NCBI GenBank assembly: GCA_902520885.1
Contig: CABYPW010000007.1
Coordinates: forward strand, 1-64,000
Direction: 5' to 3'
Source of the DNA: an uncultured SAR116 cluster alpha proteobacterium
GTDB lineage: Bacteria > Pseudomonadota > Alphaproteobacteria > Puniceispirillales > Puniceispirillaceae
Length of the DNA: 64,000 bases
Each line of letters starts with the position of its first letter. Position 1 is the stretch's first letter. A program made the translations under genes and the position numbers. Below the pieces are notes generated by a model, which saw only the letters and a list, made by a program, of their open reading frames with translations, was not told the DNA's origin and searched no databases. Shown in pieces: positions 3,001 to 21,855 of the stretch.

Positions 3001-6000
3001 AACAGTAAGCTTATCAGTAGCAATATCTAGGGCACCTGAGACAGTGGTCTTTGATACATCATAATTACTAATCTCATAACCGTTAGGTGCATTCACGACT
3101 AAAGAAATATTTGAGGCAAGCGCGGAAAAATTATCACTTATCGAAAAAGAATCAACGCCACTGGTCTCTGCTTTATTTCCGACAACAACGGAGGCTTCTT
3201 CGACACTCAAATTACTGAAGCTCGTTCCAGGTGCATATTTGATGGTATCTACGTCCGCCATTGCATCAAGCTGGACAGCCTGTGCATGAGACGCACCTGT
3301 TGCTGTAACGTCCCCTGAAGCGAAGATAGCAAAACCATCTGAATTTAAAATACTAGTTGCGGTATCTTGTATTGTCAGCTGAGACGAGCCAGGAAAATTA
3401 GTGGCATGAACGAATGCTTCCGCTTCTGCAATAGTTGCATTTGTCAAGTTTGCAGATGTGAACTGGTTTGCAACATTAGTACCGTCATCTAGTGAGTAGC
3501 TAAAATTCACATTTGGGTAATTAGTATTTAAATCAATGGCTTCTGAAAGAGTTACGTCGTTTACGTGCACATCTTTGAACGTAAATGACACTGGTGTTCC
3601 ATTGTATACAACATATGGGTTTTCCAAAATAGATGGGATAGATGAAGAGCCTAATCCTGCATTTACAGTTGATGCATCAGCTGCGGTTAAATTTGCATAT
3701 GTATCTGAAATAGAGATATTGGGTATTTGTGACGCATTAGCTGCTTTCAATACAGAGAGAGCTTGAGAGACGGTCAATCCCATAAAATTGGCTTCGGTGG
3801 ATAACACGCTGGTATCTATGGAAAATTTGTCAACCACACTGGGTAAATTTGAAGATGAAAAGGAGGTTGAAGATTGCTGTGTGCCAGATACAAAAGACTC
3901 TGCATCAGCTACATTTGATACGGTTGCATGAACCTCATGAACATCTCCTAGTATGTTTGAGTCCGTTAAATCTGAGATGTGTGTGTCTAAATTCGCTACG
4001 GTATCGACAATACTAATTACCGATTCGTCTGTTAAACCATTTGTTGCACCAGAAGTGCTTTGCAATAAAGCGAGTGCTTCATCCACCGAAGCTCCAGTAA
4101 TAGAGGCCGCACCAGTTAATGACGTATCAAGAGTAAAATTATCAACATTTCCGTCATTTTTAAGAGAAAGGGCGTCTTCTTTAGATGAAACATCGGTAGC
4201 AGTTACATCGCCAGATACCTGGAGTGTGGAGGAAGATGCGGTTTTAATTTTTTCAGCATCGTCTGTAATATCGTAATTTGAGGAGACAGAACTGTAACCA
4301 GAAATCGCTTGAATGGCGGAGGCTTCGTCAACGGTTACATCTCCACCCGAAACGAAAACAGAGTTTGCATCGTCTAGCTCATTCGCATTGCCAGTGCCGA
4401 CTACTTCAGCAGCAATTGCGTCAGCGGTATCTCTAATATCAAATGAGATATTGGCGCTATAATCAGTGAGTGTTTCACCTTCAGAAGCAGAAACAGGACC
4501 ATCTGAGACAGTAACTACATCAACACCTGCTTTGTCTAAAATTGCATCCGTTGAAGATAGGATATTTGCGGCTGTATCTGTGATATCATATTCACTATTC
4601 GCGCCATCATAAGCACTAATGGACTGTATCGACACCGCTTCATCGACTGTAACATCTCCCGATGTAACCGCAACTGAGTCAGCCTCATCAAACACAGATG
4701 AACCAGTGCCACCCATCTCAGAGAGAACATTATCTGCCGTGTCAGCCACATCAAACTCGACCACGGCTGATAAATCAGAAATAGCAATGCCTTCAGAAGC
4801 GCTTGTAGGGCCATCATTAACAGTAATTTCATCGATACCCGAAATATTTAAAATATTATCTCCTGCAGAGATTATGTTTGCCGCAGAATCAGCAACATCA
4901 AATTCACTTGCACTATCTATATAATTCGAAATTGCCTGTATTGCCTCTGCATCTGAGACACTAACTGGTGCATCAGTAGGCACAGATGGCTTAACGACAA
5001 CGCTATCTGCATCATCTAAATCGCCTGCGCCATTGGTTCCTGTAACCTCTGCCGCCACAGATGAAGCGTTATCTTCAACATCAAAATCAATATCAGCAGT
5101 AAAGGCATTTAAAATTGCACCATCTGAGGCACTTACATCCCCATCTGTAACATCAACATTTATATTTCCGTTTGTAAGAACAGAGTCTGTTGCCGAAATG
5201 ATATCTGCAGCATCATCATCTATGCTGTAAGAACTGGTGGAAGCATTATAACCTGACAAGTTTTGAATGACTTGTGCTTGAGACACATCTAAAGCTGGAC
5301 CGCCACTAGCCGTGATATTTGCTGCCTCTCCAAGTGAGTTAGCATTGTCATATATGTCTTTTGCTGTGCCCTCTACGTCAAACACAACTGCTTTTGTCAT
5401 TCCATTTAAAGAAATACCATCAGTTACTGAAGAGGCACCAGAATTAACCGTTACTGTTCCAACTTCCGCAGAACCCAAGACCGCGTCATTGGCCGCCAAA
5501 ATTTTTGTATCGCTATCTGCTATGTCTACGGTGCCAGAACCCAGCACAACATCGTCTAACCCTTTGAGAACACTTAATTGATCAACCGAAATAGGATTAC
5601 CTGAGATAACATTTATAACGTCCGCATCCGCAACGGCAAGGTTTTCAAGTGTGTTTGAACTGGTAGCAAAATCAACGATTTGTTTGGCTGAAGCATTAAC
5701 TTCAAGAGTAAATTCTGGGGAAAATGTGTTAACGACATCAGATAAAATCTTCATTTCATCCAATGAAATCGGAGAGGTTGTTCCAGATGTAACTTCTACA
5801 CTCTCTGCATTTTCTAAAACAGTTTGCGTATATGAACCGTCAAAGAATAGCAAATTATCAGGCGTATCTTTGAAACTCACAGAGGTAGCAAAACCTTCGA
5901 CGGCGCTTAAATCAGATACCGCAAGCTCAGTTATGGATACGTTACCAATTTTGGTAACTGTATCACCCTGCAAACTCGATAAAGTGAGGGTGCCTGAGGC

Positions 6001-8154
6001 AGAATTAAGGTCGGAAAAAGATGTTTCTAAGTTAATTGTAGTTACTAGCGACTCTGACGATAAATTCTCATATTGGGAAATTGTGGCATCCTCAACGCTC
6101 AAACTGCCTGGACCTGTAGAAAGACCATTCAATGCTGTGAGTTCTGCGCTAACCTCTGTTGCTGTATCAACGATACCATAGGATGCAGGGCTATTGACTA
6201 CCTTGGTATCTTGAGCCGCGATTGCCTCGCTAACCGCTATTTTTTCAGAACCACTCTCGACAGCGCTTAAAATACTACTTTCAATTGAAATGCTCTGAAC
6301 ATGTGCTGCGCCAACTAAGTCAGCCAATTCGTCCATATGGGCGTTACCAGCGGTGACAGATGACACACCGTTTAATGCTCCTCCAACGCCAAAAAGCGCC
6401 GCGGAATCTAATATTGTGCCGGCATTATCTGAAATGCTTATTGTGCCCGGCGAAGGAGAATTAGTCGCATTAGCGCTCAACGCAAGTTCGGCGCCATCTA
6501 CTATGATGTTGGTGAACGTTTCACCGGAGGCAAATGTGTAAGTAAGACCAACATCTGCATTTGCTCCATTATTCGCATTAACAAAATCTGTTGCGGCATC
6601 GAGTGCTATAATTTGGTCTACAGTGGCTTCTGTTGCCGAAAGACCTGTGATTTTTAACAATGGTGATGAGGTGTCAGGGTTTCCGTTCGCATCCACAATA
6701 GATTGTGGGTCCAACTGCATAAGATTGGCAGCCGTATCCGCAATCGAGGCCGAATTTATTATTCCACCTGTTATATCATCACTTGTGAGCGCCAAAAATT
6801 GCTCAACAGTGATGTCAGTTAAATCCTTCAAGGACCCTGTGACGAGTTCAGCATCAAGTGAGTACGAAGACACCGTACTGTCATTATAATTATTAAGCGC
6901 CTCTTGAATTTCTGCTGGTACAGGCGGAATCCAATAGCCAGCGTCTGTAGGTGAGGAAATATATTCTCCAGCATTACCACCTATCGTAAATCCACTGCTA
7001 TTTATGTTTGACTGCGAGTCATATAAAACATTTTCGAAGGAGTCTCCTCTTAGAGAAGAGTTAGATATAGCAGCTTGAAAGTTTGCGACAGTATCTATGT
7101 ATACCCCTTTATCTTGTCGGTCGGCAGAGGGGGATTGTGGACCCGCACCCGCCCCAGCCAAATAAGCTGAGCTGTTAACTTCATCAATAGATCCTGTTAC
7201 GAAATAACCACCCCTATCAGAGGCTGATGTATCAGACCTGTTAATGGGACCCGAGTAAGGCTCTTCACCAGGCTTTAGTAACTGAGTGAGAGGATCTTGA
7301 AACGAGAAATATGTTCCATTTGCATACGATGCTGATGAGTTTCCCATTGTGTATCCGACTGCGGAGGTGCCAGACATTATTCCACTAATGCTCTCTCCAT
7401 CATATGCCCTAATATTAGGCACAGTGTAGAAAGTTAAACCCGGGAACTCTTCAAATCGAACCTCATAAATATCGCTAATTCTAGCCCCTTCGTAATAAAA
7501 ATGGTTGTTGATTGATTCCTCCAAACGATGTTCATCAATCCACAAATATCCATAACTTTGCTTCACACCCAAAAATGCAGAACTCTTGCCCGCGTCACCA
7601 ATAAAGGTAGGCGTAGCGTCTCGAACCCATAAAGCGGTAGTGTAGCTAGACCATTCGTGAGAAAGCGAATGTTTCCAAGCACCTAAAAACTCGTCTTTAA
7701 AGGGGGGTGAAGGACGCTTTAAAACATCTAAACTCCAACTTGCGCCTTGAGATGCATGCCCCACTTTGTTCGAAGACATGTTGACTGCAGCGGCCGTTGT
7801 GATTGAAACAACCTCTGCAAAATTAGAGCCGCTATCTCCAGCTCCAGTCTCGCAAGACCAAAAGTTTATAACACGGGAATTTATATCTAAATCTTTAATC
7901 GCGCTTGATGATAATTGAGAAATGCCTTTGACCCACTGGCTCTCCCCAACAAATTCACCATTCACGTATATTCCGCCAGGCGCACCATGCGCTAGGATGT
8001 TTAATTCAAACGTCTCGTTTTCCGAAACAATGTTATTTATCGTCTCAAACAGCGTTTGTCGTTGAATGGGTATGGGTAGGTAGTTTTGATTTAGGCCCTC
8101 AAGAAGAGTGCTTACATCAGATATCGTAGGGTCAAATAATAGATAACTGTTCAT
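1..8154 (-). CDS. Giant repeat-rich surface protein with DUF4347-like N-terminus (partial, C-terminus outside window)
   Basis: The minus frame reads open in translation from an ATG at 8154 to base 1, giving 2718 codons with no stop, so the C-terminus lies beyond the left edge. The first ~130 residues (YLLFDPTISD, then ILAHGAPGG with His56, then NFWSCETGAGD with Cys101) match the DUF4347 module seen at the N-terminus of very large bacterial surface proteins. The hydrophobic-His-Gly and hydrophobic-Ser-Cys spacing resembles a clan CD (caspase-like) dyad; catalysis is unproven. Residues ~370 onward are degenerate repeats rich in Asp, Thr, Ala and Ser with no visible Cys, built around IQAISGY, DTAANIISA and LNAFTADIDF. 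Near residues ~2330-2610 there are two almost identical 140-residue units. Composition and size suggest an exported adhesin or S-layer-like protein. The secretion route cannot be seen because the C-terminus is missing. Confidence 0.85.
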   Translation of the reverse strand, partial: MNSYLLFDPTISDVSTLLEGLNQNYLPIPIQRQTLFETINNIVSENETFELNILAHGAPGGIYVNGEFVGESQWVKGISQLSSSAIKDLDINSRVINFWSCETGAGDSGSNFAEVVSITTAAAVNMSSNKVGHASQGASWSLDVLKRPSPPFKDEFLGAWKHSLSHEWSSYTTALWVRDATPTFIGDAGKSSAFLGVKQSYGYLWIDEHRLEESINNHFYYEGARISDIYEVRFEEFPGLTFYTVPNIRAYDGESISGIMSGTSAVGYTMGNSSASYANGTYFSFQDPLTQLLKPGEEPYSGPINRSDTSASDRGGYFVTGSIDEVNSSAYLAGAGAGPQSPSADRQDKGVYIDTVANFQAAISNSSLRGDSFENVLYDSQSNINSSGFTIGGNAGEYISSPTDAGYWIPPVPAEIQEALNNYNDSTVSSYSLDAELVTGSLKDLTDITVEQFLALTSDDITGGIINSASIADTAANLMQLDPQSIVDANGNPDTSSPLLKITGLSATEATVDQIIALDAATDFVNANNGANADVGLTYTFASGETFTNIIVDGAELALSANATNSPSPGTISISDNAGTILDSAALFGVGGALNGVSSVTAGNAHMDELADLVGAAHVQSISIESSILSAVESGSEKIAVSEAIAAQDTKVVNSPASYGIVDTATEVSAELTALNGLSTGPGSLSVEDATISQYENLSSESLVTTINLETSFSDLNSASGTLTLSSLQGDTVTKIGNVSITELAVSDLSAVEGFATSVSFKDTPDNLLFFDGSYTQTVLENAESVEVTSGTTSPISLDEMKILSDVVNTFSPEFTLEVNASAKQIVDFATSSNTLENLAVADADVINVISGNPISVDQLSVLKGLDDVVLGSGTVDIADSDTKILAANDAVLGSAEVGTVTVNSGASSVTDGISLNGMTKAVVFDVEGTAKDIYDNANSLGEAANITASGGPALDVSQAQVIQNLSGYNASTSSYSIDDDAADIISATDSVLTNGNINVDVTDGDVSASDGAILNAFTADIDFDVEDNASSVAAEVTGTNGAGDLDDADSVVVKPSVPTDAPVSVSDAEAIQAISNYIDSASEFDVADSAANIISAGDNILNISGIDEITVNDGPTSASEGIAISDLSAVVEFDVADTADNVLSEMGGTGSSVFDEADSVAVTSGDVTVDEAVSIQSISAYDGANSEYDITDTAANILSSTDAILDKAGVDVVTVSDGPVSASEGETLTDYSANISFDIRDTADAIAAEVVGTGNANELDDANSVFVSGGDVTVDEASAIQAISGYSSVSSNYDITDDAEKIKTASSSTLQVSGDVTATDVSSKEDALSLKNDGNVDNFTLDTSLTGAASITGASVDEALALLQSTSGATNGLTDESVISIVDTVANLDTHISDLTDSNILGDVHEVHATVSNVADAESFVSGTQQSSTSFSSSNLPSVVDKFSIDTSVLSTEANFMGLTVSQALSVLKAANASQIPNISISDTYANLTAADASTVNAGLGSSSIPSILENPYVVYNGTPVSFTFKDVHVNDVTLSEAIDLNTNYPNVNFSYSLDDGTNVANQFTSANLTNATIAEAEAFVHATNFPGSSQLTIQDTATSILNSDGFAIFASGDVTATGASHAQAVQLDAMADVDTIKYAPGTSFSNLSVEEASVVVGNKAETSGVDSFSISDNFSALASNISLVVNAPNGYEISNYDVSKTTVSGALDIATDKLTVEQATLYFGALNSDFATPLNNGPTYSIEDTAKNIVDGENNGSEARSGIFNASEVVANGLGPDLTVAETKVILALGNFAGTSDVDVSDSAVNILSGGDQVLDNLGIDIVTVSDGPVSAADGAAINAFTAEVEFDVNATASELAAEVAGANVGDELDEANSVVVASGGPDVTAEEAHAIQDISGYVGTQSDYDISDSAANLISAGNHVLDVSGVSSISVDDGPATASEGAALNALNPAISFNVTDKAENVAAEVSGVEKSGTELDEAGVVKAINEFTAEVEFDVSADEAEAIQNISGYDASGSSYEIEDTAAELISAQDTVLNDPGVRHVEVISGVNGGDEVTAVDGAVLTSFSADIDFDVMDTAQAIAAEVTGAGNFSTDLDDAGRIFVTGGTVNVSDADAIQAISGYDEGVQQGGVSYQISDSVSNLTGSSDSTLTNGNINVTATGVANASDGAILNAFTANIDFDVADTATNLAAEVDPYMGSYGRLDDAASIEVLSGSAVDVDDAVSIQAISGYTGAGDLDIQDDAADLISAGDAVLNQAGVDQVSTNESTVDANIGAQLNAFTADIEFNVTDNAVNILQEINDSGSDGTELDEANDLIATDSVAFQPSVNSVVINDTKPTDNYGNPTSINGVQFKELPDGNIAVAWVASVVKTAGGITDAVQDIYARVIDPSTGSFITGELNLTNYSPSNSQVGTISEVVATQNGGFAVVFEDIHNAYQTINEQGVVTSGAPGISAAEGSADVVWSSGSNSVVINDTKPTDNYGNPTSINGVQFKELPDGNIAVAWVASVVKTAGGITDGVQDIYARVIDPSTGSFITGELNLTNYSPSNSQVGTISEVVATQNGGFAVVFEDIHNAYQTINEQGVVTSGAPGISAAEGSADVVWSSIPDYDKSVSVDEAKLIQDITNYNAAASDYDIQDNSANIISAGDEVLTNGGIEVEVTNNVGASDGAILNAFTADIDFAVEDTAQNIADQVNGTNGSAGSLDDAEKVIVDSGA
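334..747 (-). repeat. 414-bp direct repeat, copy 1 (inside giant gene)
   Basis: This copy matches 754-1167 at an offset of 420 bp, which is exactly 140 codons, so the frame is kept. By reading the two copies against each other I find only two differences (596 c versus 1016 g, and 610 t versus 1030 a). The encoded unit contains ELPDGNIAVAWVAS and DIYARVIDPSTGSF, in the style of the VAxxDGGFVVxW repeats of RTX-type giant proteins. Confidence 0.95.
754..1167 (-). repeat. 414-bp direct repeat, copy 2 (inside giant gene)
   Basis: Second copy of the unit at 334-747, separated from it by 6 bp (748-753). The near identity contrasts with the strong divergence of all the other repeats of the same gene, which points to a recent duplication, gene conversion, or an assembly effect. 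Confidence 0.95.
1200..2935 (-). repeat. Degenerate ~100-residue protein repeats, block A
   Basis: About five units recur at roughly 300-330 bp. Each has two halves: one with IQxISGY, a YxIxDTAANLISA stretch and VLxxxGV, and one with ASEGAxLNAFTA, a F(D/N)VxDTA stretch and LDEAxxV. IQ-x-IS-GY landmarks lie near 1480, 1800, 2140 and 2470, with a weaker unit near 2790. Boundaries are approximate because the units grade into more divergent copies. Confidence 0.8.
4200..5300 (-). repeat. Degenerate ~100-residue protein repeats, block B
   Basis: Four better-preserved units of the same type as block A, with IQ-x-IS landmarks near 4310, 4630, 4950 and 5270. The stretches between the blocks (2940-4200 and 5300-6900) carry shorter and more divergent versions of the D-T-A-x-N-L motif. 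Confidence 0.8.
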
Positions 8155-8495
8155 TTTAATTACTCGCGATTCATAATTTAGATACACTACCCCCGTCGAG
8201 ATAGCCTTTTCACCATATACGTACTTTTACATATGTCAAACTTTTTTTATCATTTTTTTGAAATTTTTCTGAATTAATTTTAAACAAACAAAAACTCTAA
8301 AAGTTTATCGTATCAAATTTGGAAAAATAAAGTAGATAATTATATGTTTTTGTTTATTATTTTGTATTTTTGGCAAACAAAATATCTAACTTTTCTTTTT
8401 AAATAAATGCCTATATTTTATGCAGTAAAAGACAGCCGTTTTGTGTCAATACGAATCAATTAAATTTTTAAAAAAGATGTATTTTGATACAGATT
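8155..8495. other. AT-rich intergenic stretch (340 bp)
   Basis: It separates the giant gene from the GT41 gene upstream. Apart from the promoter at 8212-8239 it is a run of A/T-rich sequence with many T tracts. I see no ORF, RNA gene or GC-rich terminator hairpin in it. Confidence 0.6.
8212..8239 (-). promoter_or_regulatory. Sigma70-like promoter for the giant gene
   Basis: On the minus strand a perfect TTGACA (8239-8234) is followed after 16 bp by TATGGT (8217-8212). The predicted transcript start is about 50 nt before the ATG at 8154, in an otherwise gene-free region. Confidence 0.55.
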
Positions 8496-10589
8496 TTATT
8501 GATTTTTTAACACTGAAATGTAACATTTTTCTAAATCTTGAGTGAATTTTTTTGTATTAAAAAGAGGTTTTTTTGCCCTATTTTTGGTTAAATCAGCTCT
8601 GATTTTAGCTAGTTTTTTCGTATTTTTTGCAAGCTCTACTGCCAAATCTTCATAAGATTCGTTACTATGCGTTATTAATTCCTCCAACCCTACAGCTGAC
8701 AACAAACTCGCGCCGACCCGAGCGGGAAAACTTTTTCCGATTTTTGTTACAATGGGCACTCCACTCCAAAGGGAATCACTCCCTGTTGTATGCGCGTTAT
8801 AGTAAAACGTATCAAGCGTTAAATCGGCTAATTTGTGCCTCGCCAGATGCTCGGAAACAGGCTTTCGACTTGCAAACACCAGCCTTGAGGACGATACACC
8901 TCTTTTTTTTGCCTCCTTCTTCAAATTTGCCGATGCAAAATGATTACTTTCAAAGAGCCAGAGAACACTTTTAGGTACTCTTTTAAGTATTCTGCACCAT
9001 ACATCAAACTCCTCTGGCCCGATTTTATAATTATTGTTAAAACAGGAAAAGACGAAACCAGTTTTTGGTAATCCTTCGTCGATACGCGATACTTTCTTTC
9101 TAGAAATTATTTTCGTGCTATCATTAACTTGATAGGAATATGGCATCTGAATTATTTCTTCCGTGAAAAACGCTTTATCTTCAAGGGGCGTTACAAACTT
9201 ATCACCAATAATATAATCAAGATTTTTATCACCTAAGGTCCCTGGAAATCCAAGATAACTAATTTGTATGGGAGCAACACCGTAGGCAAATATCTTGGGT
9301 CTGCAATCTGTAGTGTGCCCTTTTAAATCAACGCCGATGTCTAATTCTAATTCGCGTGCTAAGTTTGATATATCTAGGTCTGATTTTTTAGACACATCAT
9401 AAAACGAGTGTACACACGCTCTTACTCGATTTTGAAAAGCGTCATCTTTTAATTCAGGACCAAAAGAAAAGGCTAAAATCTCAAATGTATTTTGATCATG
9501 AAGCTCTAGCATTTTTATCATCAAGTGCATAGTCGCGTGGTCGTGAAAGTCAGCTGAAAAATAACCAACTTTAATTTTCTTTTTTCCTTTTGGTTTTTTA
9601 TATCCAATAAATGGCGTTCTTAAGATTTCACCTACTTTTGCTCGGGTATAATTTTTCGTAGCCCTAAGCTGAAATTCTGGGTCATCAATAAGGTTCAGTA
9701 AATTAAACGTCGACGGCGCAGGACGCGAATGGTCTCTCTCACTTAATTCAATAATTTTTTGGGTAAGAATAACGGTTCTTTCAGGGTTTCTACTCCAATC
9801 ACATATTTGACGCTCGAGGCATAAAATCTTGCATAAAACATCAAAGGAGGTTGGCTCCAATTGAGCCACCCGTTTAAGAGCATTTAAGCTTTTTGAATAT
9901 TCTTTTTTTATTTCGAAGCATGAGGAAATATTTTTGAGTGCCGGTACATAGTTTGGATCTATTTTCAAAGCTAACTGATAATCAGCGATAGCAGCAGATG
10001 TCTTTCTCAGGTGTTTTTTTGCATTTGCCCTATTATTGAGAGCTGCCATGTAATTAGGATTGATATCAATTGCCTTAGTAAATGATGCGATTGCGGGTTC
10101 AAACCGCCTTATCTTGAGCAATGCAAGCCCAAAATTATACCAGGATTCCATGCTTTTTTCATTGATTTTAGCGCACCTCTCAAAATTTTTAGCAGCATCA
10201 AATTCTTCACCAGAATTGAGTTGCAAAACAGCAAGATTAAACGTTAATAAGAAATGCTCTGGTTCAAACTGCAACCCTTTTTCCAAATAAGCCTTTGCCT
10301 GCTCAGGATTGCCGAGTTTTTGGCTAATATCTGAACAATTAATATAGATTCTAACAAGAACATCTTTTCTTACTGAACCTATTTCTCCTGCTACCTTTAA
10401 TGCGCCTCTATAGTTTTGAAATGCTTCGTTAGTTTTGTTAGTGGCTAAGCATAATCTGCCCTTTGCTTCTAAAAGATAAAAATTTTTATCAAAATTTTTT
10501 TCAAGCACAGATAGTTCTGACTGTGCCTCAGAAAAATCTCTATTTAAAAATTTAGCTTCAAATGCTTCCAAGTTTATTTCTTCGGTCAT
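8496..10589 (-). CDS. TPR-containing GT41 glycosyltransferase (OGT/SPINDLY-type)
   Basis: A protein of about 697 residues. Residues ~15-270 are tandem TPRs (motifs such as YNFGLALLKIRRFEPAIASF and ALKIDPNY). Residues ~340-690 are the O-GlcNAc-transferase catalytic region: VGYFSADFHDHATMHLM with the His-rich loop, then GHTTDCRPKIFAYGVAPIQI, LGFPGTLG, and TFYYNAHTTGSDSLWSGVP near the nucleotide-sugar site. The family moves a sugar from a nucleotide donor to Ser/Thr (OGT) or Asn (HMW1C group) of cytoplasmic proteins. The open frame extends to a GTG at 10610, but the ATG at 10589 has AAGG about 8 nt upstream and is preferred. It lies directly upstream of the giant repeat protein on the same strand, which suggests that protein as substrate; this is inference. 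Confidence 0.88.
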   Translation of the reverse strand: MTEEINLEAFEAKFLNRDFSEAQSELSVLEKNFDKNFYLLEAKGRLCLATNKTNEAFQNYRGALKVAGEIGSVRKDVLVRIYINCSDISQKLGNPEQAKAYLEKGLQFEPEHFLLTFNLAVLQLNSGEEFDAAKNFERCAKINEKSMESWYNFGLALLKIRRFEPAIASFTKAIDINPNYMAALNNRANAKKHLRKTSAAIADYQLALKIDPNYVPALKNISSCFEIKKEYSKSLNALKRVAQLEPTSFDVLCKILCLERQICDWSRNPERTVILTQKIIELSERDHSRPAPSTFNLLNLIDDPEFQLRATKNYTRAKVGEILRTPFIGYKKPKGKKKIKVGYFSADFHDHATMHLMIKMLELHDQNTFEILAFSFGPELKDDAFQNRVRACVHSFYDVSKKSDLDISNLARELELDIGVDLKGHTTDCRPKIFAYGVAPIQISYLGFPGTLGDKNLDYIIGDKFVTPLEDKAFFTEEIIQMPYSYQVNDSTKIISRKKVSRIDEGLPKTGFVFSCFNNNYKIGPEEFDVWCRILKRVPKSVLWLFESNHFASANLKKEAKKRGVSSSRLVFASRKPVSEHLARHKLADLTLDTFYYNAHTTGSDSLWSGVPIVTKIGKSFPARVGASLLSAVGLEELITHSNESYEDLAVELAKNTKKLAKIRADLTKNRAKKPLFNTKKFTQDLEKCYISVLKNQ

Positions 10590-10621
10590 AACTAAGCCTT
10601 GAAAATTCACATTTTTTTTAT

Positions 10622-10635
10622 CGAAATTAATTTCG
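10622..10635. promoter_or_regulatory. Perfect 14-bp palindrome between divergent genes
   Basis: CGAAATTAATTTCG is fully self-complementary and lies between the GT41 gene (minus) and the secreted-protein/two-component group (plus). It is a candidate operator, for example for the FixJ-type regulator encoded downstream. Function is inferred from symmetry and position only. Confidence 0.4.
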
Positions 10636-10727
10636 TCTATTGATAATTATTAAGTCTATACAGTATGGTGTTGAGAAGCAACGGTACGATTTTCGTTTGG
10701 GTTTCAACGCAAAGTAAGGGATTGCTC

Positions 10728-11396
10728 TTGATTATGAACTGGGCAAAAGAAACACCTCATTTATCACTGAGGATACTCAAATTCTTTGCGGTTTTTGTGT
10801 TTATTTCAATACAAACCTCGCCTTCATTTTCTGACGAAAAACAATATTCAAGAATTTCAGACATTATTGAACAACATTTGATGATCAAAGAGGATGTAAT
10901 TCAATCTGTGAAAGCTGGAACAACTCAGCTTGAGAAGGCCTGTAGTTTCAATACAAATTTACCTCAATCAGATACAGCATTAAATCTAGATGAGGGCTTT
11001 CAAATAGTCCAAAAAGATCATGACGTTTCCCAACGCTTCTTTGCTGACCTAAACAATTCAATCCAGAAAATTCGGCGAGAAAAAACCTCAACCTACAGAA
11101 ATAATTGCAGCATAATTAGCAATCTCTTGGGTAATGCCAGAGAAAAAGAAAAATTGTGTGAAAGCACAAAAAATGTCCTTAGCTTTCTCGATAGATTAAA
11201 CATAAGCGTCGAGGCAGATAAAAAGTTAATTGATGAAAAATTAAGTGTGATGGAAAACCTATTCTCGATGAAAGCACAGGATTGTGTTTCTACAAATTTT
11301 CCTGATGAAATTTATGAAAACATGCAAACGATTGTTGAGCCCATTGACACTATTGTACGAAATGAATTCAGGCAGGCTACTGAAATTACAAATTAA
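10728..11396 (+). CDS. Secreted coiled-coil protein of unknown function
   Basis: I do not recognise a family. A Sec-type signal is visible: charged residues, then a hydrophobic core (LKFFAVFVFISIQ) and a likely cleavage near SFS-DEK. The mature part (~195 residues) is mainly helical and charged, with four Cys residues that could form two disulfides. The start is uncertain: TTG at 10728 has AAGGG 7 nt upstream, while the ATG two codons later (10734) is farther from it; the open frame begins at 10665. It is the first gene of a plus-strand group followed after 14 bp by a sensor kinase, so it may feed a periplasmic signal to that kinase (inference). Confidence 0.7.
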   Translation: MIMNWAKETPHLSLRILKFFAVFVFISIQTSPSFSDEKQYSRISDIIEQHLMIKEDVIQSVKAGTTQLEKACSFNTNLPQSDTALNLDEGFQIVQKDHDVSQRFFADLNNSIQKIRREKTSTYRNNCSIISNLLGNAREKEKLCESTKNVLSFLDRLNISVEADKKLIDEKLSVMENLFSMKAQDCVSTNFPDEIYENMQTIVEPIDTIVRNEFRQATEITN

Positions 11397-11410
11397 AAGA
11401 ATAAATCACT

Positions 11411-12961
11411 ATGAATGTTCCATTTATAAATCCAAGAAACGTATTAGCTAGTTTTGTTGTTTTAGTATTACTAGTTTCTTCAATCTCTTCTATTTATTTG
11501 AGTCATAGATTATCCTCTAATAACGATTTATCAAACATTCAAAATATCCAGTCAGGATATCGGCTGTTATTCAATCAAAAGCTGGATATATTAGAAGACG
11601 AATTATCATTTTTCACGTCCAGAAATTACCAGTTCAAAGAATTAGATGAAAGCCTTATTGCCGGCAAATTTGTTTTCAATATAAGCACACGAACTGAAAA
11701 TGGAATTGAAGTTAAAGATAAACTTTTATGGAGAAAAACAGAGGAAAATTTTAATTTACCTCCCAATCTATTCAAAAACTCTTTAATTGTTTTATTTGAA
11801 GCAAGCAAAAAATTTCTTGGGCGCCCACTTTACGGCCCCTCCTATCGCTTTGAGGAAAACAATAATGGGCTTCCAATTATTTATTCAGTAAAACTGGACG
11901 AAAACACCCACTCAACTTTTACTATTTGGCTGAATTTAGACGGATTTGTAGAGTACATAAACTCAGAATACAATAAAAATTTTAAAGATGGGGCAAAAAT
12001 TGAATTAGTTAAAAACAATGAGCCAAAACATATCTTTACAATTGATAGAATCCCAAGCATCACACTCAATCTTCTGAGCGAAAAGAGTAACCATTATTTC
12101 AACATTTTTAACAATCGAATATATTACAATACCGTATTAGTAGCGCTTCTCAATGTTGTGATATTAACTCTAGTATACTTCTCTATTAAACGGTCGTTTA
12201 ACCGTTTAAATTTAGAAAATTTTAAATATATTAGTTTTTGGAACCAGGAAATCCAAGACAAGATTTCTTCTGTCCGAGAATTATCATCTAGTTTGTCACA
12301 CGAACTAAATCAGCCATTAGCAGCATGTGAGATTCTCCTGTCGACTCTAAAATCAGAGGTCTCTAAAAGTGACCCTAATAGTGAAAAAATCAAGGATGTG
12401 TCAAATAAAATAGCTGACCAATTAGACCGTTGCACACGAATAATTCAGTCAATGAATACATCAGGACGAGGATTTGATTTACATCCTCAATCATATTATC
12501 TAGAGGATCTGTTTAAGGGGCTCATGCCGTTAATTGAATTACAAGCAGAAAAATATGGTTTTAAAATAAACCTGGAGATTAATAAAAAATTTAAGTTATC
12601 TGTTGATAAAACTGCTTTTGAGCAAATTTTATTAAATGTTTCTCGCAATGCCCTGGAAGCTATGAGTGAAAACCATGAATCAGACAATATATTAAGAATA
12701 TTTGCTGATTTAAAATCTTCACAAAAAGCTCCTTTGTTTAATGAAAAGTTAAAGATAGTTGTCTCTGACAGTGGTTTAGGCATTCCAAGGGAACTCAACG
12801 AACATATTTTCGAGCCATTTGTTTCAAATAAAAAGGATGGGGTCGGATTAGGATTAAATATTGTTAAATCATTAGTAGAGAGAAGTAAGGGAAAAATTTA
12901 TCATGCTGCTAACAGCAGAGGTGGTTGTGATTTTACCATAGAACTTCCTGTTATGAGTTAA
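11411..12961 (+). CDS. Membrane sensor histidine kinase
   Basis: 516 residues. TM1 is at ~10-30, a ~205-residue periplasmic sensor region follows, and TM2 is at ~238-258. The H-box SSLSHELNQPLAA carries the likely phospho-His297 and resembles the HELNQPL class (FixL/DctB-like). The N-box (LLNVSRNALEAM), G1 (VVSDSGLGIP), F (IFEPFVSNKK) and G2 (GVGLGLNIV) boxes of the HATPase domain are all present, so the kinase should be active. The gap to the regulator gene is 3 bp, which indicates co-transcription. The periplasmic part has no domain I recognise, so the signal is unknown; the secreted neighbours on both sides suggest an envelope signal. Confidence 0.92.
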   Translation: MNVPFINPRNVLASFVVLVLLVSSISSIYLSHRLSSNNDLSNIQNIQSGYRLLFNQKLDILEDELSFFTSRNYQFKELDESLIAGKFVFNISTRTENGIEVKDKLLWRKTEENFNLPPNLFKNSLIVLFEASKKFLGRPLYGPSYRFEENNNGLPIIYSVKLDENTHSTFTIWLNLDGFVEYINSEYNKNFKDGAKIELVKNNEPKHIFTIDRIPSITLNLLSEKSNHYFNIFNNRIYYNTVLVALLNVVILTLVYFSIKRSFNRLNLENFKYISFWNQEIQDKISSVRELSSSLSHELNQPLAACEILLSTLKSEVSKSDPNSEKIKDVSNKIADQLDRCTRIIQSMNTSGRGFDLHPQSYYLEDLFKGLMPLIELQAEKYGFKINLEINKKFKLSVDKTAFEQILLNVSRNALEAMSENHESDNILRIFADLKSSQKAPLFNEKLKIVVSDSGLGIPRELNEHIFEPFVSNKKDGVGLGLNIVKSLVERSKGKIYHAANSRGGCDFTIELPVMS

Positions 12962-12964
12962 ACG

Positions 12965-13624
12965 ATGATTACACTCATTGAAGATGATAAAGGTTTGTCA
13001 GATGCTCTAATAGGTCTTTTTGAGACAAATAATCTGAAAGCTGAACACTTTGTTTCAGGAGAAGCATTTCTTGAAAGTTTTGATATAACTACAAAGACAA
13101 ATAAAGAAGAAAATATTTCAGAGATATCGCCAGGAATTTATGTACTCGACATTAGATTACCTGGAATTTCCGGAATAGAAATATTCGACGAAATAAATAA
13201 TAGAGTAAAATTAAATCATCGACCCATTATTATGATGACTGGTCATGGTGATGTTGAGATTGCAGTATCTTTGTTAAAAAAAGGTGCCTTTGACTTTTTA
13301 ACCAAACCAGTGAAAACTGACAATCTAATGTCAACAATTAATAAAGCGTATTCCTCATCAAAAGATTTAGTAGATTCAAAAAATTTTATTATTAATTTTG
13401 AATTTTTTACGGCTAAATTGACTGCTAGGGAGAAGGAAACTGCTGATTTAATTGCAGCTAATTATACCAATCGTATTATAGCAGAAACACTAGGTATAAG
13501 TGTCCGCACGATAGAATTGCATAGAGCAAGGATTTTTGAAAAGATGGAAATTTCAACTGCGGGTGAATTATCTTCTAAATATGAAAAATATTCTTTTTCT
13601 AAAAAATTTTTTGAAAAAAAGTAA
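12965..13624 (+). CDS. FixJ-family response regulator (REC + LuxR-type HTH)
   Basis: 219 residues. The receiver domain (1-~125) has the acidic cluster IEDD, phospho-acceptor Asp62 in VLDIRLPG, Thr in MMTGHGD, and Lys in FLTKPV. The C-terminal HTH (~150-210) has LTAREKETADLIA, NRIIAETLGISVRTIELHR and KMEI, typical of FixJ/NarL DNA-binding domains. It pairs with the kinase immediately upstream. The target promoter is not known; the palindrome at 10622-10635 in front of the operon is one candidate site. Confidence 0.93.
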   Translation: MITLIEDDKGLSDALIGLFETNNLKAEHFVSGEAFLESFDITTKTNKEENISEISPGIYVLDIRLPGISGIEIFDEINNRVKLNHRPIIMMTGHGDVEIAVSLLKKGAFDFLTKPVKTDNLMSTINKAYSSSKDLVDSKNFIINFEFFTAKLTAREKETADLIAANYTNRIIAETLGISVRTIELHRARIFEKMEISTAGELSSKYEKYSFSKKFFEKK

Positions 13625-13645
13625 TACTCAAGTAAAGCAACCAAA

Positions 13646-14389
13646 ATGATCCAATCACGAATTTTAAAAATAGTATGTTTTATTTTTTTTGTGTGCACAT
13701 CATATGCTACTTTTGCAAATGATAATGCTCCTCGAAAAATTACTGTAAATGAAAAAACTTCTGTTGCTAGTGGTTTTTTTGTCACCGACGACGGCTATTT
13801 AGTTACAGCTTATCACGCTATTGCGAATTTTAATGAAATAATAGTTCTATTGGCCAAAAACCGAGCTATAGAAGCACAAGTCGTAAAATACGACGATAAG
13901 CTAGATTTAGCTTTGTTAAAAATCAATTCTATAACGCCTTTTGTTTATTTATCCCATTCCAAATCTGTTCCAGCAGGCATGGATGTAGTAACAATAGGAT
14001 ATCCACAAGTAGCATTTTTGGGAATTACACCAAAAATTACGCGAGGAATTGTTAATAGTAACACTGGACTTCAAGATGATAAAAATTCTTTTCAGTTTAG
14101 CGCTGAGGTCCAGCAGGGAAATTCAGGGGGTCCATTAGTAGCACCCGGGGGAACAATCGTCGGTGTTGTGCAATCAAAGTTAGATGCATTAAAACTATCT
14201 GAAAAAACGAATGATCTCACACAAAATGTGAACTTTGCAACAAAGAGTGCAATTTTAATTGATTTTTTGTCTTTCTTACCTAATTTGCCCTCAACACAAC
14301 CGCTAGATCCTGACCAACCTCTTAAGGCAATCCGAATTTATCAGGAATTGGAGAAGTCGGTTGTCCCAATTATCGCAAGGAACAAATAG
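13646..14389 (+). CDS. Secreted trypsin-like (S1C/HtrA-type) serine protease
   Basis: 247 residues with an N-terminal signal (IVCFIFFVCTSYATFA). The triad is visible: His57 in TAYHAI, Asp87 in KLDLALLKI, Ser160 in QQGNSGGPLV. GYPQ and GVVQSKLDA fit the HtrA-like chymotrypsin fold. There is no PDZ domain: the protein ends about 75 residues after the serine, so it is shorter than DegP or DegS. It is the last gene of the secreted protein - kinase - regulator group (22 bp after the regulator) and probably acts in the periplasm. Its substrate is unknown. Confidence 0.9.
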   Translation: MIQSRILKIVCFIFFVCTSYATFANDNAPRKITVNEKTSVASGFFVTDDGYLVTAYHAIANFNEIIVLLAKNRAIEAQVVKYDDKLDLALLKINSITPFVYLSHSKSVPAGMDVVTIGYPQVAFLGITPKITRGIVNSNTGLQDDKNSFQFSAEVQQGNSGGPLVAPGGTIVGVVQSKLDALKLSEKTNDLTQNVNFATKSAILIDFLSFLPNLPSTQPLDPDQPLKAIRIYQELEKSVVPIIARNK

Positions 14390-14413
14390 ATTAGGATACT
14401 GTCGGGTTGTAAT

Positions 14414-16375
14414 TTATTTTGTTTGGGCTGTGTAAACTCCATCCCAATCTTTTGGCACTGGTAATTCTAAAAGCTCATTAAGTCTCTCATCCATTAATTT
14501 TGAAAACTGAAATATAGAGCTATTCTCATCTTGAATATTTTGTTTGATCGCTTTCTTGGCGTCTTTAAATTTTCCTTCTCTGAACAACCGTAGATAGTCC
14601 TCCACAATTTTTAATTCCGTTTCAGACGCGTCTGCCTCTAAAAGTCCAAAAATAGTCTCAGGATCTTTTTTTCCCTTCACTCTTATTTTATCAATCTCTA
14701 ACACTATTTCTTTTTTATCCAGAACTGCCTCAGCCGTATTTTTACATAAAACAGTAGTAATTCCATAACCTTTGGTTTGTCCTTCTAGCCTTGATGCAAG
14801 ATTTACAACATCCCCTAATACTGTGTAGTCGAAACGCTGTTTAGAGCCCATATTGCCTACAACACACTCACCAGTCGCAACACCTATTCCAATTCTCAAG
14901 TCAAATGACACTTGTCCCTGCGCACTGATAATATCATTAACTTTATATATAGTTTTCATCATTTTTTGAGCTGCTTGAACTGCTAGTTCTGCATGTTTAG
15001 GGTTTTCAACGGGGGCATTCCAAAATGCCATGATGCAATCCCCCATATATTTATCAATTGTTCCACCACATTCTAAAATATCATTTGTCAACTCTGTTAA
15101 TAAAGTATTTATAACTTCTGCCAAAACTTCAGGTTTTTCCTTAAGAGCTTCAGAAATTGCAGTAAAACCTCTTACATCACAAAACATAATTGTCATTTTT
15201 CTCTTTTCACCACCCAGAGTTAATTTATCTGGGTCAGCAATCAAAGCATCAACCATGTCAGGAGCAAGATATTGTGCAAAGGCACCTTTAATCTGTCGTT
15301 TTTGTTTTCCTTCTGTAAGATAAGCGTGCGCCCCTGAAGCAACGAAGCTAAAAATAAATGACGGAAGAGCCGCGAATGAAGTGAGAAAATATCCTTGTTG
15401 CCATGTTATTATTGAGGCTCCAAAAGCCCCTGCTCCGGATACCAGCAAAATTCCTGCAGAAACAAAAGGGTTAAATGTTTGTGTGGCAAGAAACCCAATG
15501 ACTGCCATAAAAGCCAAAAATAGGATTTTTTGCTCTATTGATGGATTAACAATCCAACTTTCGTTTAACATGTTATGGAGCATGTTTGCGTGAACTTCTA
15601 CTCCTGGAGATAAGCGGGCATTAAACCGAGTATGTGGAGTAGGAAATGCGTCTACTTGACTCTGCTGAACATCTGGAGTGGCTTTTACGTCAAGTCCTAT
15701 TAACACATATTTATTTTCCACAGCACCTTGTTCTATGCCATCTTCCAAAAAGAATTGATAATAGGAAAGATAGTTAAAGGAATGATCCTCTCCTATATAG
15801 TTAATTATTCTTGAGCGTACTGATGGAACCTCATCCATCTGTGCTGCAACCGAAGAGAGTGTTCCTTCAAATGACGGAAAATATCTAATTACTCTGTCAT
15901 TATCTTGGTCAACTCCTGCAAGACCAACCCTTGCGCCAGCCTCTTCAAAATCAATAAAGGGCCGAGTTTCAATCACACCTGACATAAAACCATCATCAAC
16001 AGCAGTAAGGTCTGATGCCAAAATCACATTATCTGCCATTGAGATTGCCTCTGCAAAATACCCATCTGATTCTGGTTCAGAGGGCTCTGCAAATACCACA
16101 TCAAAAATAATATCACGGGCTCCTTCCTCAACTAAACGCTCTACTAGCATGCCATGGAGTTCTCGAGGCCAGGGCCATTGTGTTTCAAAAGCTGAAAATG
16201 AGCTCTCGTCTATCGCTACGACTACAATATCAGTTGCTGGCGCCGTGGATGGGCTTATTACATTTAAGACGTCTATATTAAGTCTCTCTGAAGGCCCGAG
16301 CAAAACAAAGTAGGAAAATATATTTCCTAGTAAAGCTGCAGCTAGGGCTATTTTCCATTGTTTGCCAAATTTCAC
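14414..16375 (-). CDS. CHASE2-domain class III adenylate/guanylate cyclase
   Basis: 653 residues. An N-terminal TM anchor is followed by a periplasmic CHASE2 domain (VVVAIDESSFSAF, WPWPRELHGMLVERL, DIIFDVVFAEPS), then three TM segments at ~285-350. The cytoplasmic class III catalytic domain has metal-binding Asp400 (MFCDVRGFTAIS) and a second Asp near 446 (KYMGDCIMAFW), plus GIGVATGECVVGNMGS and YTVLGDVVNLASRLE. The start is GTG at 16375 and overlaps the stop of the FecR gene by one base (TAGTG), so the two are translationally coupled. A cyclic-nucleotide-binding protein is encoded nearby at 20725-21123. Whether the product is cAMP or cGMP cannot be settled by eye. Confidence 0.93.
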   Translation of the reverse strand: MKFGKQWKIALAAALLGNIFSYFVLLGPSERLNIDVLNVISPSTAPATDIVVVAIDESSFSAFETQWPWPRELHGMLVERLVEEGARDIIFDVVFAEPSEPESDGYFAEAISMADNVILASDLTAVDDGFMSGVIETRPFIDFEEAGARVGLAGVDQDNDRVIRYFPSFEGTLSSVAAQMDEVPSVRSRIINYIGEDHSFNYLSYYQFFLEDGIEQGAVENKYVLIGLDVKATPDVQQSQVDAFPTPHTRFNARLSPGVEVHANMLHNMLNESWIVNPSIEQKILFLAFMAVIGFLATQTFNPFVSAGILLVSGAGAFGASIITWQQGYFLTSFAALPSFIFSFVASGAHAYLTEGKQKRQIKGAFAQYLAPDMVDALIADPDKLTLGGEKRKMTIMFCDVRGFTAISEALKEKPEVLAEVINTLLTELTNDILECGGTIDKYMGDCIMAFWNAPVENPKHAELAVQAAQKMMKTIYKVNDIISAQGQVSFDLRIGIGVATGECVVGNMGSKQRFDYTVLGDVVNLASRLEGQTKGYGITTVLCKNTAEAVLDKKEIVLEIDKIRVKGKKDPETIFGLLEADASETELKIVEDYLRLFREGKFKDAKKAIKQNIQDENSSIFQFSKLMDERLNELLELPVPKDWDGVYTAQTK

Positions 16376-19300
16376 TAAAAATAACTCCTGTAAGTAAGAG
16401 TTATTTTGTATTCATTAGGATCGGCATTTTCATAGGTGTAAGAATGTATTAAATCTGCAGCAAATTCCCCATTTCCTATTGCCCGTGTATAATTAACTTT
16501 CTGACCACTTTTATCGTAAGGAGTTCCATAAGCTGTGGATACAATACCCGTCATATGGTAGGCTAATCCCGCAATGAGAAAATCATCATAACGTTTAGTT
16601 ATACCAATATGTGCTAATGTTTCTGGTATATCAGTTACACGTCCAAAAGCCCCCTCTTCATCATATCCAGGATGGTTAATAACCTCGGCATCTAAAAATT
16701 CAATTCCCGAATACATACTTAGTGTATCTGACAGTAATGACTCTGCTTTTATGCTAGAGGTTTTAAATCTTGCTGCCGCAAAAGAATTAGTAGGAGTATA
16801 AATCCTATTTGCATTAGGATTATTAAATTTATTTAGGGTAAAATTCTCTAATAAATCAGCATTCCATTGTTCTCTAAATATGATGTATACGGGGTTATTT
16901 TTAATCTCAAAATCATCAAAATTGGCATATAATCTTGTTTGTTCAGACATTTGGTATCTAAAATGCGCAGATGCCTGATTTATGTGCCCGCCAGAATTCA
17001 TAAACTCATATCGTGTTGCAACTCCTGCGATATCATCTATATGCAGAGATGCTTGTTTTAGAGGATGATAGTCTTGTATTAGAGCGAATGAATAACCAAC
17101 CTTTTCATTTTCATTTGAAATGCCTATTGCAGGTCGAAGCTTAATCTCACTAATATTAGATGTAACTCCTGTCTGAGCCACTGAATCTAGACTAAGTGTT
17201 TGTTTGAAGTCTCGGTCATATAAAAGACCCCTCACTCTAAATTCACGTATGTAATCAGCCTTTGTTTCCTTCAAATTAAATGAAACAACCCAATCATATT
17301 CATCATTTTTAATATTTTCTATGCGTTCTGAATATGCTGTTGAAAGATCACTGCACGCAGTTGAGCTTGTGGGATCTGTAACTGTATAATCAGATTCTGC
17401 CTGCCTGTAGGCCCCTTCTGCTGCCCAGGATAATTCAGTATTATCAAGTTTAACCCCAACTTCGCCAACCCCAAATTCTCCTGCAACGGTCTTCATTTTA
17501 TCAACACCAGTGCAACCACCAGATACATTAATAGATATTTCTGCATCACCATTTTCTGCAGCTAAACTATTTAGGAAAATTGATTTATCTTTTCTAAAGG
17601 AAACACCAAAATCCACTCTGGAAGTTGTATCTTCAATCGGAAACGTACCATCGGTCTCGAAAGGAACAATATTCGCTGTAACGAAACGGTTTGTATCAAA
17701 TCCGTCACGCCATCCCAGACCAAAAAATCCTAATCCAAATGTCGATGTATCTGTATCATCACTTGCATAATACGCGTCCCTCTGAGTTTGAAATATACCG
17801 ATATCGGTAAGATAGCTAAATTCTTGGTTTCCATTTATTTTGCGTCCATTAGTTCCAAACTTAAGAGCTATGTCACTATTTTCTTCGCCAAAACCAACTT
17901 TTATTTCTCTATAACCATAATCACCAGGCCGAGCTATAACATCCGGACTGTCCCGCCTGGAACCAAACGTCTGACTATCTAGTGTGAAGCCCCTAATATA
18001 TTGTGAATTTCTCTCTAGCGCGCTTGGCGCTGTTGCAGCCCTAAAAAGATAGCTGCCAGCCCATTTTTGATCTTTTGTTTTCTGAGCAGATTCTCTCGCA
18101 TGATTTGGAAGTCCAACCTCCAAAAAACGTCTTCCAACGTTAGCACCACCTTGCTGATCGTTGGCTAATTGTCCCCAACTAGTTTCATTGGTGGTTCGTT
18201 CTATCGCTTGTCTGGCATGATAAATAGCCTTCCCTGATTCAAGCTGTGCTGAATATATTTGAGATGCAACAATGTGCGGCAACGGGTCTTTCTCATCAAG
18301 TTTAATCGCTCTTTCTAATTGAGTTACAGCTTGAGAGACTTCGTTTGCGTGGAGGTGCGCAATGGCCATAAAAACGTATGATTTTGCATAATTTGGTTCT
18401 AACGCTGATGCCTGCACAAAATAGTCAATAGCTTCTTGGTGCTTTCCATCTTTAAGCTCAACAATTCCAAGAGCAACCAACATATCTATCTGATTTGGGT
18501 CAGATTCTAATACTATTTCAACTTCTTTTCTTGCTTCTTCTAATTGATACCTATAACTAAAATATTGTGCCTTTCCTGCTGCTAGAGAGTTAGTCTTGCC
18601 TCCTAATTTTTCGGCAAGCTTTAACACACCTAAAGCATAATCATAATTACCATTAACTATTTCAATCTGAGAAATTTTAATTAGTGGTTTTTGCCAATAG
18701 GGGTCATATTTGTTAGCTAGTTTATAATAGCCCAATGCAGTTGACGCATTCCCTTTAGCTTGCTCTATCTCAGCCAAAAGTGAATAAAAACTGGCTTTGC
18801 TTTGTGCATCCTCTACGCCCTGCAACAGCATTTTTGTTGCTAAATCATAGTCTCCATTTGAAAAGTTAAATTTTCCTTCAAGGTATAATCTACCAGATGA
18901 GGCTGGTATCTCGTTCAGGATTTGCTGACCGGTTTTAACATCTCCCAAAGCAAAATTAGCGTCTGCTTTAATCAGTCTAGCCCATATATTCCACTTACCA
19001 TCTGGCAAAATATTAGGGTCTATTTTTACAAGACAACTTGGGTCTCTGTTTTCAATACTTTCCAGAAAGCGTTCTGGTGTGACCATCTCGTTTAGCTCAC
19101 AAGCTGTTGTTTTTTCCGATGGGTCAACAACAGAAAGTCTGCTTGTTTTCTCAAGTTTATCTCCAACATTCTCAGGAGCATAGGCAAATGGTTCTACCTC
19201 GTATTTAAATATGAACTGAAGATAATCAGCAGGATTAAGAAGTTTATTAACGGAGATTAAACCACTACTAGTAACGTTTGCGATTTGTCCATTTTTTATT

Positions 19301-19782: not shown

Positions 19783-19861
19783 AACATAATACTTTTTTAA
19801 ACTTAAACAACGAGAAGATAACAGAAATGTACCATGCCACATAGAGTTATTTTTTATCTAT

Positions 19862-19890
19862 TTGCATGTTATTTGAGATACAACTATTAT
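19862..19890 (+). promoter_or_regulatory. Sigma70-like promoter for the lipoprotein hydrolase gene
   Basis: TTGCAT (19862-19867), a 17-bp spacer and TATTAT (19885-19890). The predicted start of transcription is about 28 nt before the GTG start at 19925. Confidence 0.5.
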
Positions 19891-19924
19891 AAAGCCCTAT
19901 TTCGACTTACTAATTGGTGAAACT

Positions 19925-20743: not shown

Positions 20744-21123
20744 TTGGCCGTTTCAATGTCTGATTTTGTTACATTTTTTTGTGTGGTGGTTTTCTTCAAC
20801 AACCCACGAATTCGTGTGACCAAAACTCTGGTTAGACCAGTTATAAAAGGATCGGATTTGGACAATTTATCATTAAACTCATATTGGCTGATTTTAATCA
20901 AATTTGCATCGCTTAAAGCGTCTGCCCTTCCTGCGCGCAAGGATTTATCAATGACGCCCATTTCTCCAAATATTTCGTTTTCACCAAGAATAAAATCTGG
21001 TTTATCTGAATTATTGGTTGGAAGGAAAATTCCTATTTCTCCAGAAACAATTAGATAAACCGAATCAGCTTTAGCTCCAGATTCAAAAATTGTCTCATTT
21101 TTTTTTACAACAATTTTTTTCAT
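20725..21123 (-). CDS. Stand-alone cyclic-nucleotide-binding (CRP-like) domain protein
   Basis: 132 residues that are almost entirely one cNMP-binding beta-roll: SVYLIVSGEIGIFL, then the phosphate-binding cassette FGEMGVIDKSLRAGRADA, which keeps the Gly-Glu and Arg of ligand-binding family members. A C-terminal helix (TRVLVTRIRGLLKK) follows, and there is no HTH, so it is not a CRP transcription factor. It is convergent with the lipoprotein gene. With the CHASE2 cyclase encoded about 4.4 kb away it is a plausible effector of that enzyme; this is inference. Confidence 0.87.
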   Translation of the reverse strand: MKKIVVKKNETIFESGAKADSVYLIVSGEIGIFLPTNNSDKPDFILGENEIFGEMGVIDKSLRAGRADALSDANLIKISQYEFNDKLSKSDPFITGLTRVLVTRIRGLLKKTTTQKNVTKSDIETANQEPDS

Positions 21124-21853: not shown

Positions 21854-21855
21854 GA

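Follow-up and report, generated by a model that had tools for sequence, protein, structure and literature searches.

A conserved secreted protein, kinase, regulator and protease operon beside a giant surface-type gene in one SAR116 genus: a possible dedicated envelope-signalling circuit

The window, a stretch of 64,000 nucleotides of contig CABYPW010000007.1 from an uncultured SAR116 alphaproteobacterium (G000 in our genome set), carries four closely spaced genes on the + strand, in the order given by the initial annotation. The first encodes a secreted helical protein with four cysteines (SP; 10734..11396), a candidate accessory sensor, and it is followed by genes for a membrane sensor histidine kinase (HK; 11411..12961), a FixJ/TtrR-like response regulator (RR; 12965..13624) and an exported trypsin-like serine protease with an HtrA-type catalytic domain (13646..14389). 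The gaps between them are 14, 3 and 21 nt. It had been asked at the outset whether the flanking genes are conserved together with the kinase pair, and they are: order and strand are kept in all three uncut loci of the genus (those of the window and of the sister genomes G001 and G004), with overlaps or gaps of no more than 21 bases. In both sister genomes adjacent genes of the module overlap by 4 to 11 nt, which, together with the kept order and strand, fits a single operon. The four genes are a real, conserved unit. Three further genomes of the genus retain the part of the locus that is present on their contigs, the contig end cutting it in each case, and four of the ten genus genomes lack it. 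The putative promoter region of the operon (10611..10733) is AT-rich and lies upstream of the SP gene; no significant sigma-70 or FixJ-type match was found in it, and a sigma-70 scan of 10400-14500 was uninformative (13 sites versus 16.3 expected).

On the left, a giant surface-type gene with an N-terminal DUF4347 (1..8187, - strand) runs open into the contig end. It is preceded by an intergenic region (8188..8495) and separated from the module by a gene for a TPR-glycosyltransferase of family 41 (8496..10610, - strand), which occurs in the window's genome only (1/10). In G000, G001 and G004 the giant gene and the module point away from each other, and the four of 61 relatives with DUF4347 all carry the module as well. 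On the right lie a CHASE2 adenylate/guanylate cyclase gene (14414..16375, - strand), convergent with the module and kept in all six genomes that have the locus, and a conserved gene for a FecR-TPR protein (16375..19842, - strand), whose aromatic C-terminal residue suggests that it is possibly an outer-membrane protein. Both the giant DUF4347 gene and the cyclase/FecR pair (14414-19842) had been overlooked by the initial annotation.

Translation of SP most likely starts at the ATG at 10734; a second in-frame ATG lies upstream at 10665. The protein has a single N-terminal hydrophobic segment (residues 8-28) and four cysteines (Cys70, Cys125, Cys142 and Cys184) that recur in both full-length homologues, in agreement with its original description as a secreted helical protein. 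The helices are also present in the AlphaFold2 model, but the best of five models (mean pLDDT 73.8; the other four reach 37-46) is a bundle of long helices, and on this model "helical bundle" describes SP better than the "coiled coil" first proposed. No Pfam family matched SP at or above its cut-off. LTXXQ in particular gave no match at E<=1 for the three SP homologues, and the LTXXQ motif is missing from the SP of the window. Foldseek with the SP model returned no match at E<=0.001, while VIA-align gave Z up to 9.2 (rmsd 4.6, 140 aligned) against unrelated, generic long-helix proteins. Profile matches to SP are limited to G000, G001 and G004 among the 61 family genomes and to G000 among 385 class genomes, and in the latter set neither SP nor the sensor domain of the kinase has a credible relative elsewhere. 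A PDB sequence search with the SP, sensor and DUF4347 profiles gave nothing better than E 0.07. A hit to SP in G124 (E 6e-4) was rejected, as it sits among ATP-synthase and other housekeeping genes.

The kinase has two hydrophobic segments (residues 3-34 and 236-261) and, between them, about 200 periplasmic residues without a Pfam match, which bears out the unrecognised periplasmic domain of ~205 residues reported earlier. The AlphaFold2 model of this domain was unusable (pLDDT 36.7), and its matches in G622 and G844 were discarded as weak (E 0.004) and lying in frames that hold stops. Only HisKA, with His297, and the HATPase_c that follows it reach the Pfam cut-off, and neither a HAMP nor a PAS domain was found with Pfam. 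The kinase of G004 fell below our search threshold (E<=1e-30) and was recognised from the list of open reading frames. In the regulator, Response_reg and GerE both score above the Pfam cut-off, and Asp62, Lys114 and helix-turn-helix residues 181-187 are invariant in all five sequences; its best NCBIfam matches are TtrR (135.7 bits, cut-off 290) and FixJ (128.2 bits, cut-off 255), both below cut-off.

Since the kinase core scores best with the ZraS, FixL and AtoS models of NCBIfam and the regulator is FixJ/TtrR-like, classes that often sense small molecules, it could be assumed that the pair responds to a small molecule and that both flanking genes are unrelated passengers of the operon. However, gene order and the close or overlapping starts have been kept even though the first genes are only 21-28% identical, and we consider this explanation improbable. 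With FixLJ, TtrSR and ThsSR, as described in PMC4999443 and PMC5408782, the module shares the regulator type and, in the two sister genomes, a match to the FixJ SELEX box, and FixL is among the best kinase matches. On the other hand, the module scores below the family cut-offs, no PAS domain was found in its kinase (and hence not the PAS haem domain of the FixL oxygen sensor), its sensor domain is a different one and its presumed target is a giant gene.

The protease (247 residues) has a Trypsin_2 domain with the triad His57, Asp87 and Ser160 invariant in all five sequences. HtrA-family matches stop by residue 200, the C-terminal tail is conserved, and no PDZ model of Pfam matched at E<=1, just as the initial annotation had it. 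The protein thus carries the triad of the HtrA (DegP/DegS) family but not its PDZ domain.

A helical periplasmic accessory protein, a kinase, a regulator and a trypsin-like protease are also combined in CpxP-CpxA-CpxR plus DegP of E. coli, and CpxP is an alpha-helical inhibitor that works with DegP (PMC4160245). MprAB-PepD of Mycobacterium likewise has the gene of an HtrA-like protease, PepD, directly downstream of the kinase/regulator pair (PMC3062566). It is therefore conceivable that the operon, with the same four roles, serves a similar envelope-stress response: SP would restrain the kinase, misfolded envelope proteins would pull SP away and the protease would remove both, the giant gene being just a neighbour. 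Yet the module, alike in logic, does not belong to either system: it differs from Cpx in its FixJ/LuxR-type regulator (that of Cpx being OmpR-type), in the missing LTXXQ match and PDZ domain, in having its protease in the same operon and in being tied to a giant surface gene, and it differs from MprAB-PepD in the missing PDZ domain. The regulator family of MprAB-PepD is also another one, and to our knowledge that pairing comes without an accessory protein. We regard the stress-response explanation as possible, though clearly not the probable one. AioXSR and its relatives are, according to PMC5908839, also co-transcribed sets of a periplasmic protein, a kinase and a regulator, with a putative FixJ-like site in the ArrR branch. 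Their first protein is a substrate-binding protein, whereas SP, with its all-helical model and no Pfam match, is a helical bundle without a recognisable relative, and the module adds a protease. The parts of the module are familiar, but their arrangement, present in one SAR116 genus, is new.

Between the giant gene and the operon, seven near-identical boxes were found in the two sister genomes. Six of them are in G004 (0.09 expected), four spaced 46-47 nt apart upstream of the giant gene, in the counterpart of the intergenic region 8188..8495, and two before the operon; the single box of G001 lies ~50 nt from the ATG of the giant gene and ~240 nt from that of the operon. Of the SELEX FixJ class GTAGTTTCCC the box holds 9 of 10 bases, and of GTAMGTAG it holds 7 of 8, both sequences being given in PMC4999443. 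Across the ten genus genomes there are seven perfect matches, all at this locus, and one match with one mismatch elsewhere. This confinement argues for a dedicated system and against a broad stress regulon. As boxes stand upstream of the operon as well as of the giant gene, it is more likely that the transcriptional output consists of both the giant surface protein and the operon, of which the protease would be one member. The most likely targets of the regulator are the operon that encodes it and the giant gene, a conclusion which for the window's genome is drawn from the sister genomes.

Several observations weaken this picture. The boxes could belong to another regulator, and G001 has only one. 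In the window, a box of the sister-genome type was not found even at 3 mismatches, and no significant motif is common to its two promoter regions, whose best shared 17-mer pair (14/17) was equalled in 45 of 100 shuffles. These AT-rich regions do contain four 18-mers with 7 of 9 palindromic pairs, against ~0.8 at the window-wide rate, which is uncorrected for their AT-richness. A repeat search and PWM scan for an operator of the window's own type gave nothing convincing. We also considered a general link between DUF4347 and the module, but rejected it: in 40 DUF4347 upstream regions, drawn singly from 40 of the 87 matching genomes and in two cases short (5.7 and 9 kb), nothing matched HK, RR, protease, cyclase, FecR or SP at E<=1e-5, and only 2 of the 40 contain boxes (versus 6 boxes in the remaining 485 kb). 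The pairing is therefore local to this genus.

Taking these results together, we put at about even the chance that the operon is a lineage-specific three-component envelope system plus protease, dedicated to the neighbouring giant surface protein. In this dedicated circuit, periplasmic SP would bind or screen something in the envelope and set the activity of the kinase through its orphan periplasmic domain, and the kinase, judging from the protein families, would phosphorylate the FixJ-type regulator. In G001 and G004 the regulator would then bind the boxes before its own operon and the giant gene and control both. The co-produced protease may trim, clear or quality-control envelope proteins, among them possibly SP, or intermediates in the export of the giant protein. 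The window's genome would have the same circuit with divergent regulatory genes and presumably with another operator. SAR116 is a common bacterial group of the surface ocean, and the control of very large surface proteins in such bacteria seems little studied; a literature search on SAR116 two-component systems with adhesins, giant or surface proteins found nothing relevant, and one for DUF4347 gave four papers that each mention it a single time. If our reading is true, a compact circuit specific to this lineage couples a giant surface gene to an accessory protein of the periplasm and a sensor domain, both orphans, and the DNA box makes the link between regulator and target directly testable in vitro.

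The operon is also a case of signal-facing genes that are far more divergent than their neighbours. Identity drops steadily toward the signal end, from 78-85% in the cyclase and 65-85% in the protease to 38-51% in RR, 31-39% in the kinase core, 22-30% in the sensor domain and 21-28% in SP (the first two genes share 21-34% across the uncut loci); in the FecR comparison the frames of G001 and G009 extend upstream past a stop, so that identities include a few extra residues. Such divergence of SP and sensor would be unlike a housekeeping stress sensor, which further argues against the envelope-stress response. It might instead suggest that SP is a secreted signal, and that SP and the kinase form a diversified ligand-receptor set for self-recognition governing display of the giant protein. 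However, kinase core and regulator diverge as well, and thus the divergence is not limited to the ligand-receptor interface; moreover, with ~190 residues after its signal peptide, SP is unlike any peptide signal known to us. We therefore find this proposal very doubtful. Somewhat less doubtful, but still unlikely, is an extension of the dedicated circuit in which hypervariable SP and its matching sensor are co-diversifying, swappable alleles with their own operator type, and the circuit watches over how the giant protein is exported or displayed, feeding back on its gene through the array of FixJ-type boxes, while protease and cyclase stay constant. Between G000 and G009, dN/dS of 0.05-0.09 for kinase, regulator and protease indicates purifying selection. 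Recent transfer of the regulatory genes is not favoured, as the GC3 values of SP and HK resemble those of neighbouring genes in G000, G001 and G004; GC3 of the G000 and G009 regulators is lower (0.19-0.20).

The four plus-strand genes found within 10665-14389 of the window, which encode in this order an accessory protein, a histidine kinase with two transmembrane segments, a regulator combining a receiver with a LuxR-type domain, and an exported trypsin-like protease, are a real conserved unit. The accessory protein is exported and carries four cysteines, and its most likely start is the ATG at 10734, which appears to open a signal-peptide-like stretch. Domain searches agreed with the initial annotation, where a four-Cys exported protein, an unrecognised sensor domain and a PDZ-less protease had been described: a Pfam search for PDZ in the protease gave nothing at E<=1, and neither the accessory protein nor the periplasmic domain of the kinase (~200 residues) gave a Pfam match reaching the cut-off. 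The protease triad (His57, Asp87, Ser160) was invariant in 5/5 homologues.

We compared the window's own genome (G000; 2.17 Mb in 39 contigs) with nine genus relatives (G001-G009). The complete gene order was present in all three loci uncut by a contig end (G000, G001 and G004), and loci lying at contig ends retained kinase-regulator-protease (G009), regulator-protease (G003) or a fragment of the protease (G008). In G002, G005, G006 and G007, both the close protease and the neighbouring cyclase were absent at the thresholds used. With overlaps of 4 to 11 nt among its first three genes in G001 and G004, and intergenic gaps of only 14, 3 and 21 nt in G000, the operon is compact. The flanking genes, whose lack of conservation with the kinase pair had been proposed as grounds for rejecting the module, thus accompany it in every uncut locus. 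The accessory-protein profile matched G000, G001 and G004 only among 61 family genomes, and G000 only among 385 class genomes drawn evenly. Among the latter, the sensor-domain profile matched G000 and nothing else, except for two matches dismissed as chance, their frames being full of stops.

Divergence along the locus is quite unequal. Pairwise among G000, G001, G003 and G004, to the extent that the gene is available, identity is 21-28% for the accessory protein, 22-30% for the sensor domain, 31-39% for the kinase core and 38-51% for the regulator, while it reaches 65-85% for the protease, 78-85% for the CHASE2-cyclase and 73-89% for the FecR-TPR protein. G000 and G009 form a close pair, sharing 98% identity in kinase, regulator and protease alike at dN/dS of 0.05-0.09, which indicates purifying selection and genes that are not decaying. 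Old, exchanged alleles seem a better account of the unequal divergence than a continuing loss of constraint; in GC3, nothing pointed clearly to a recent foreign origin.

A giant surface-type gene with DUF4347 at its N-terminus, absent from the initial account, runs divergently from the operon (window 1-8187, minus strand, truncated by the contig end; L012 of G001, 7778 onward; L058 of G004, 2688 onward; at a contig end in G003). DUF4347 occurs in 4/61 relatives, all four of which hold the module, and is widespread elsewhere in the phylum (87/397 genomes). The His-Gly and Ser-Cys pairs of the giant gene product, invariant in 4/4 homologues, suggest a possible resemblance to caspase-like peptidases. 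Identity of the G003 copy is 83% over the head of the gene, while that of its regulator is only 51%. The slot separating giant gene and operon varies in content: in G000 it holds a TPR and glycosyltransferase family 41 gene (8496-10610, minus strand; 1/10 genus genomes), in G004 a gene whose sulfotransferase match stays below threshold (16.6 of 22 bits), and in G001 no gene. We also observed a 420-base tandem repeat inside the giant gene (334-1167; two copies, 99% match) and, in a further comparison genome, a DUF4347 match (G156:C1:2731072-2731572) within an open frame 14,920 codons long.

Inspection of the intergenic DNA in G001 and G004 revealed a 17-base box, TACGTAGTTTCCGCAAA. In G004, four boxes stand immediately upstream of the giant gene (spacing 47, 47 and 46 nt) and two more upstream of the operon; these six compare with 0.09 expected at <=3 mismatches, and 0/200 shuffles reached six. 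G001 has one perfect box, in the sole intergenic region separating the two divergent genes; one match at <=3 mismatches arises in 12/200 shuffles, but the actual copy has none. In the ten genus genomes the degenerate pattern is matched perfectly 7 times, always at this locus, and once more with 1 mismatch, in G006; the reversed control pattern gave 4 matches in total. The box agrees with 9/10 bases of GTAGTTTCCC and 7/8 of GTAMGTAG, the SELEX-defined FixJ motifs as quoted in PMC4999443. The sole linked regulator, being FixJ-like, is the obvious candidate owner of this putative operator. No box was found in the window, even allowing 3 mismatches, or in the whole G000 genome at <=1 mismatch, and no motif common to the two G000 promoter regions emerged from a search. 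The G000 regulator shares only 38-40% identity with its G001 and G004 counterparts, so it may plausibly use a different operator.

Operon and giant neighbour are both conserved, and FixJ-type boxes precede both in two genomes. The module idea stands, but the protease alone, proposed earlier as the output, is a less likely one than the giant surface gene, given these boxes. By family knowledge, the kinase would pass phosphate to the regulator, which might raise (or lower) expression of both its own operon and the giant gene. The accessory protein may modulate the kinase in the periplasm, and the protease may clear or process envelope proteins belonging to this circuit. Among working systems, the closest parallels are CpxP-CpxAR together with DegP, as presented in PMC4160245, and MprAB-PepD (PMC3062566), with AioXSR (PMC5908839) as a parallel for gene order. 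The accessory protein lacks an LTXXQ match, unlike CpxP, and is not a substrate-binding protein, unlike AioX; the protease has no PDZ, in contrast to HtrA proper, and the kinase no PAS, in contrast to FixL. We regard the module as a new variant, restricted to the genus, of systems that combine an accessory protein with a two-component pair.

Four genomes of the same order (G096, G098, G124 and G135; family f4) each hold 5-7 protease matches at E<=1e-12, mostly in open frames of 300-960 codons, some grouped on one contig. On the minus strand of the window, a cyclic-nucleotide-binding protein is encoded close to the CHASE2-cyclase and the FecR-TPR protein (14414-21123), and the three may form a local cyclic-nucleotide circuit adjoining the module; a DUF1538 membrane protein is directly adjoined by a P-II-like protein (21497-23610).
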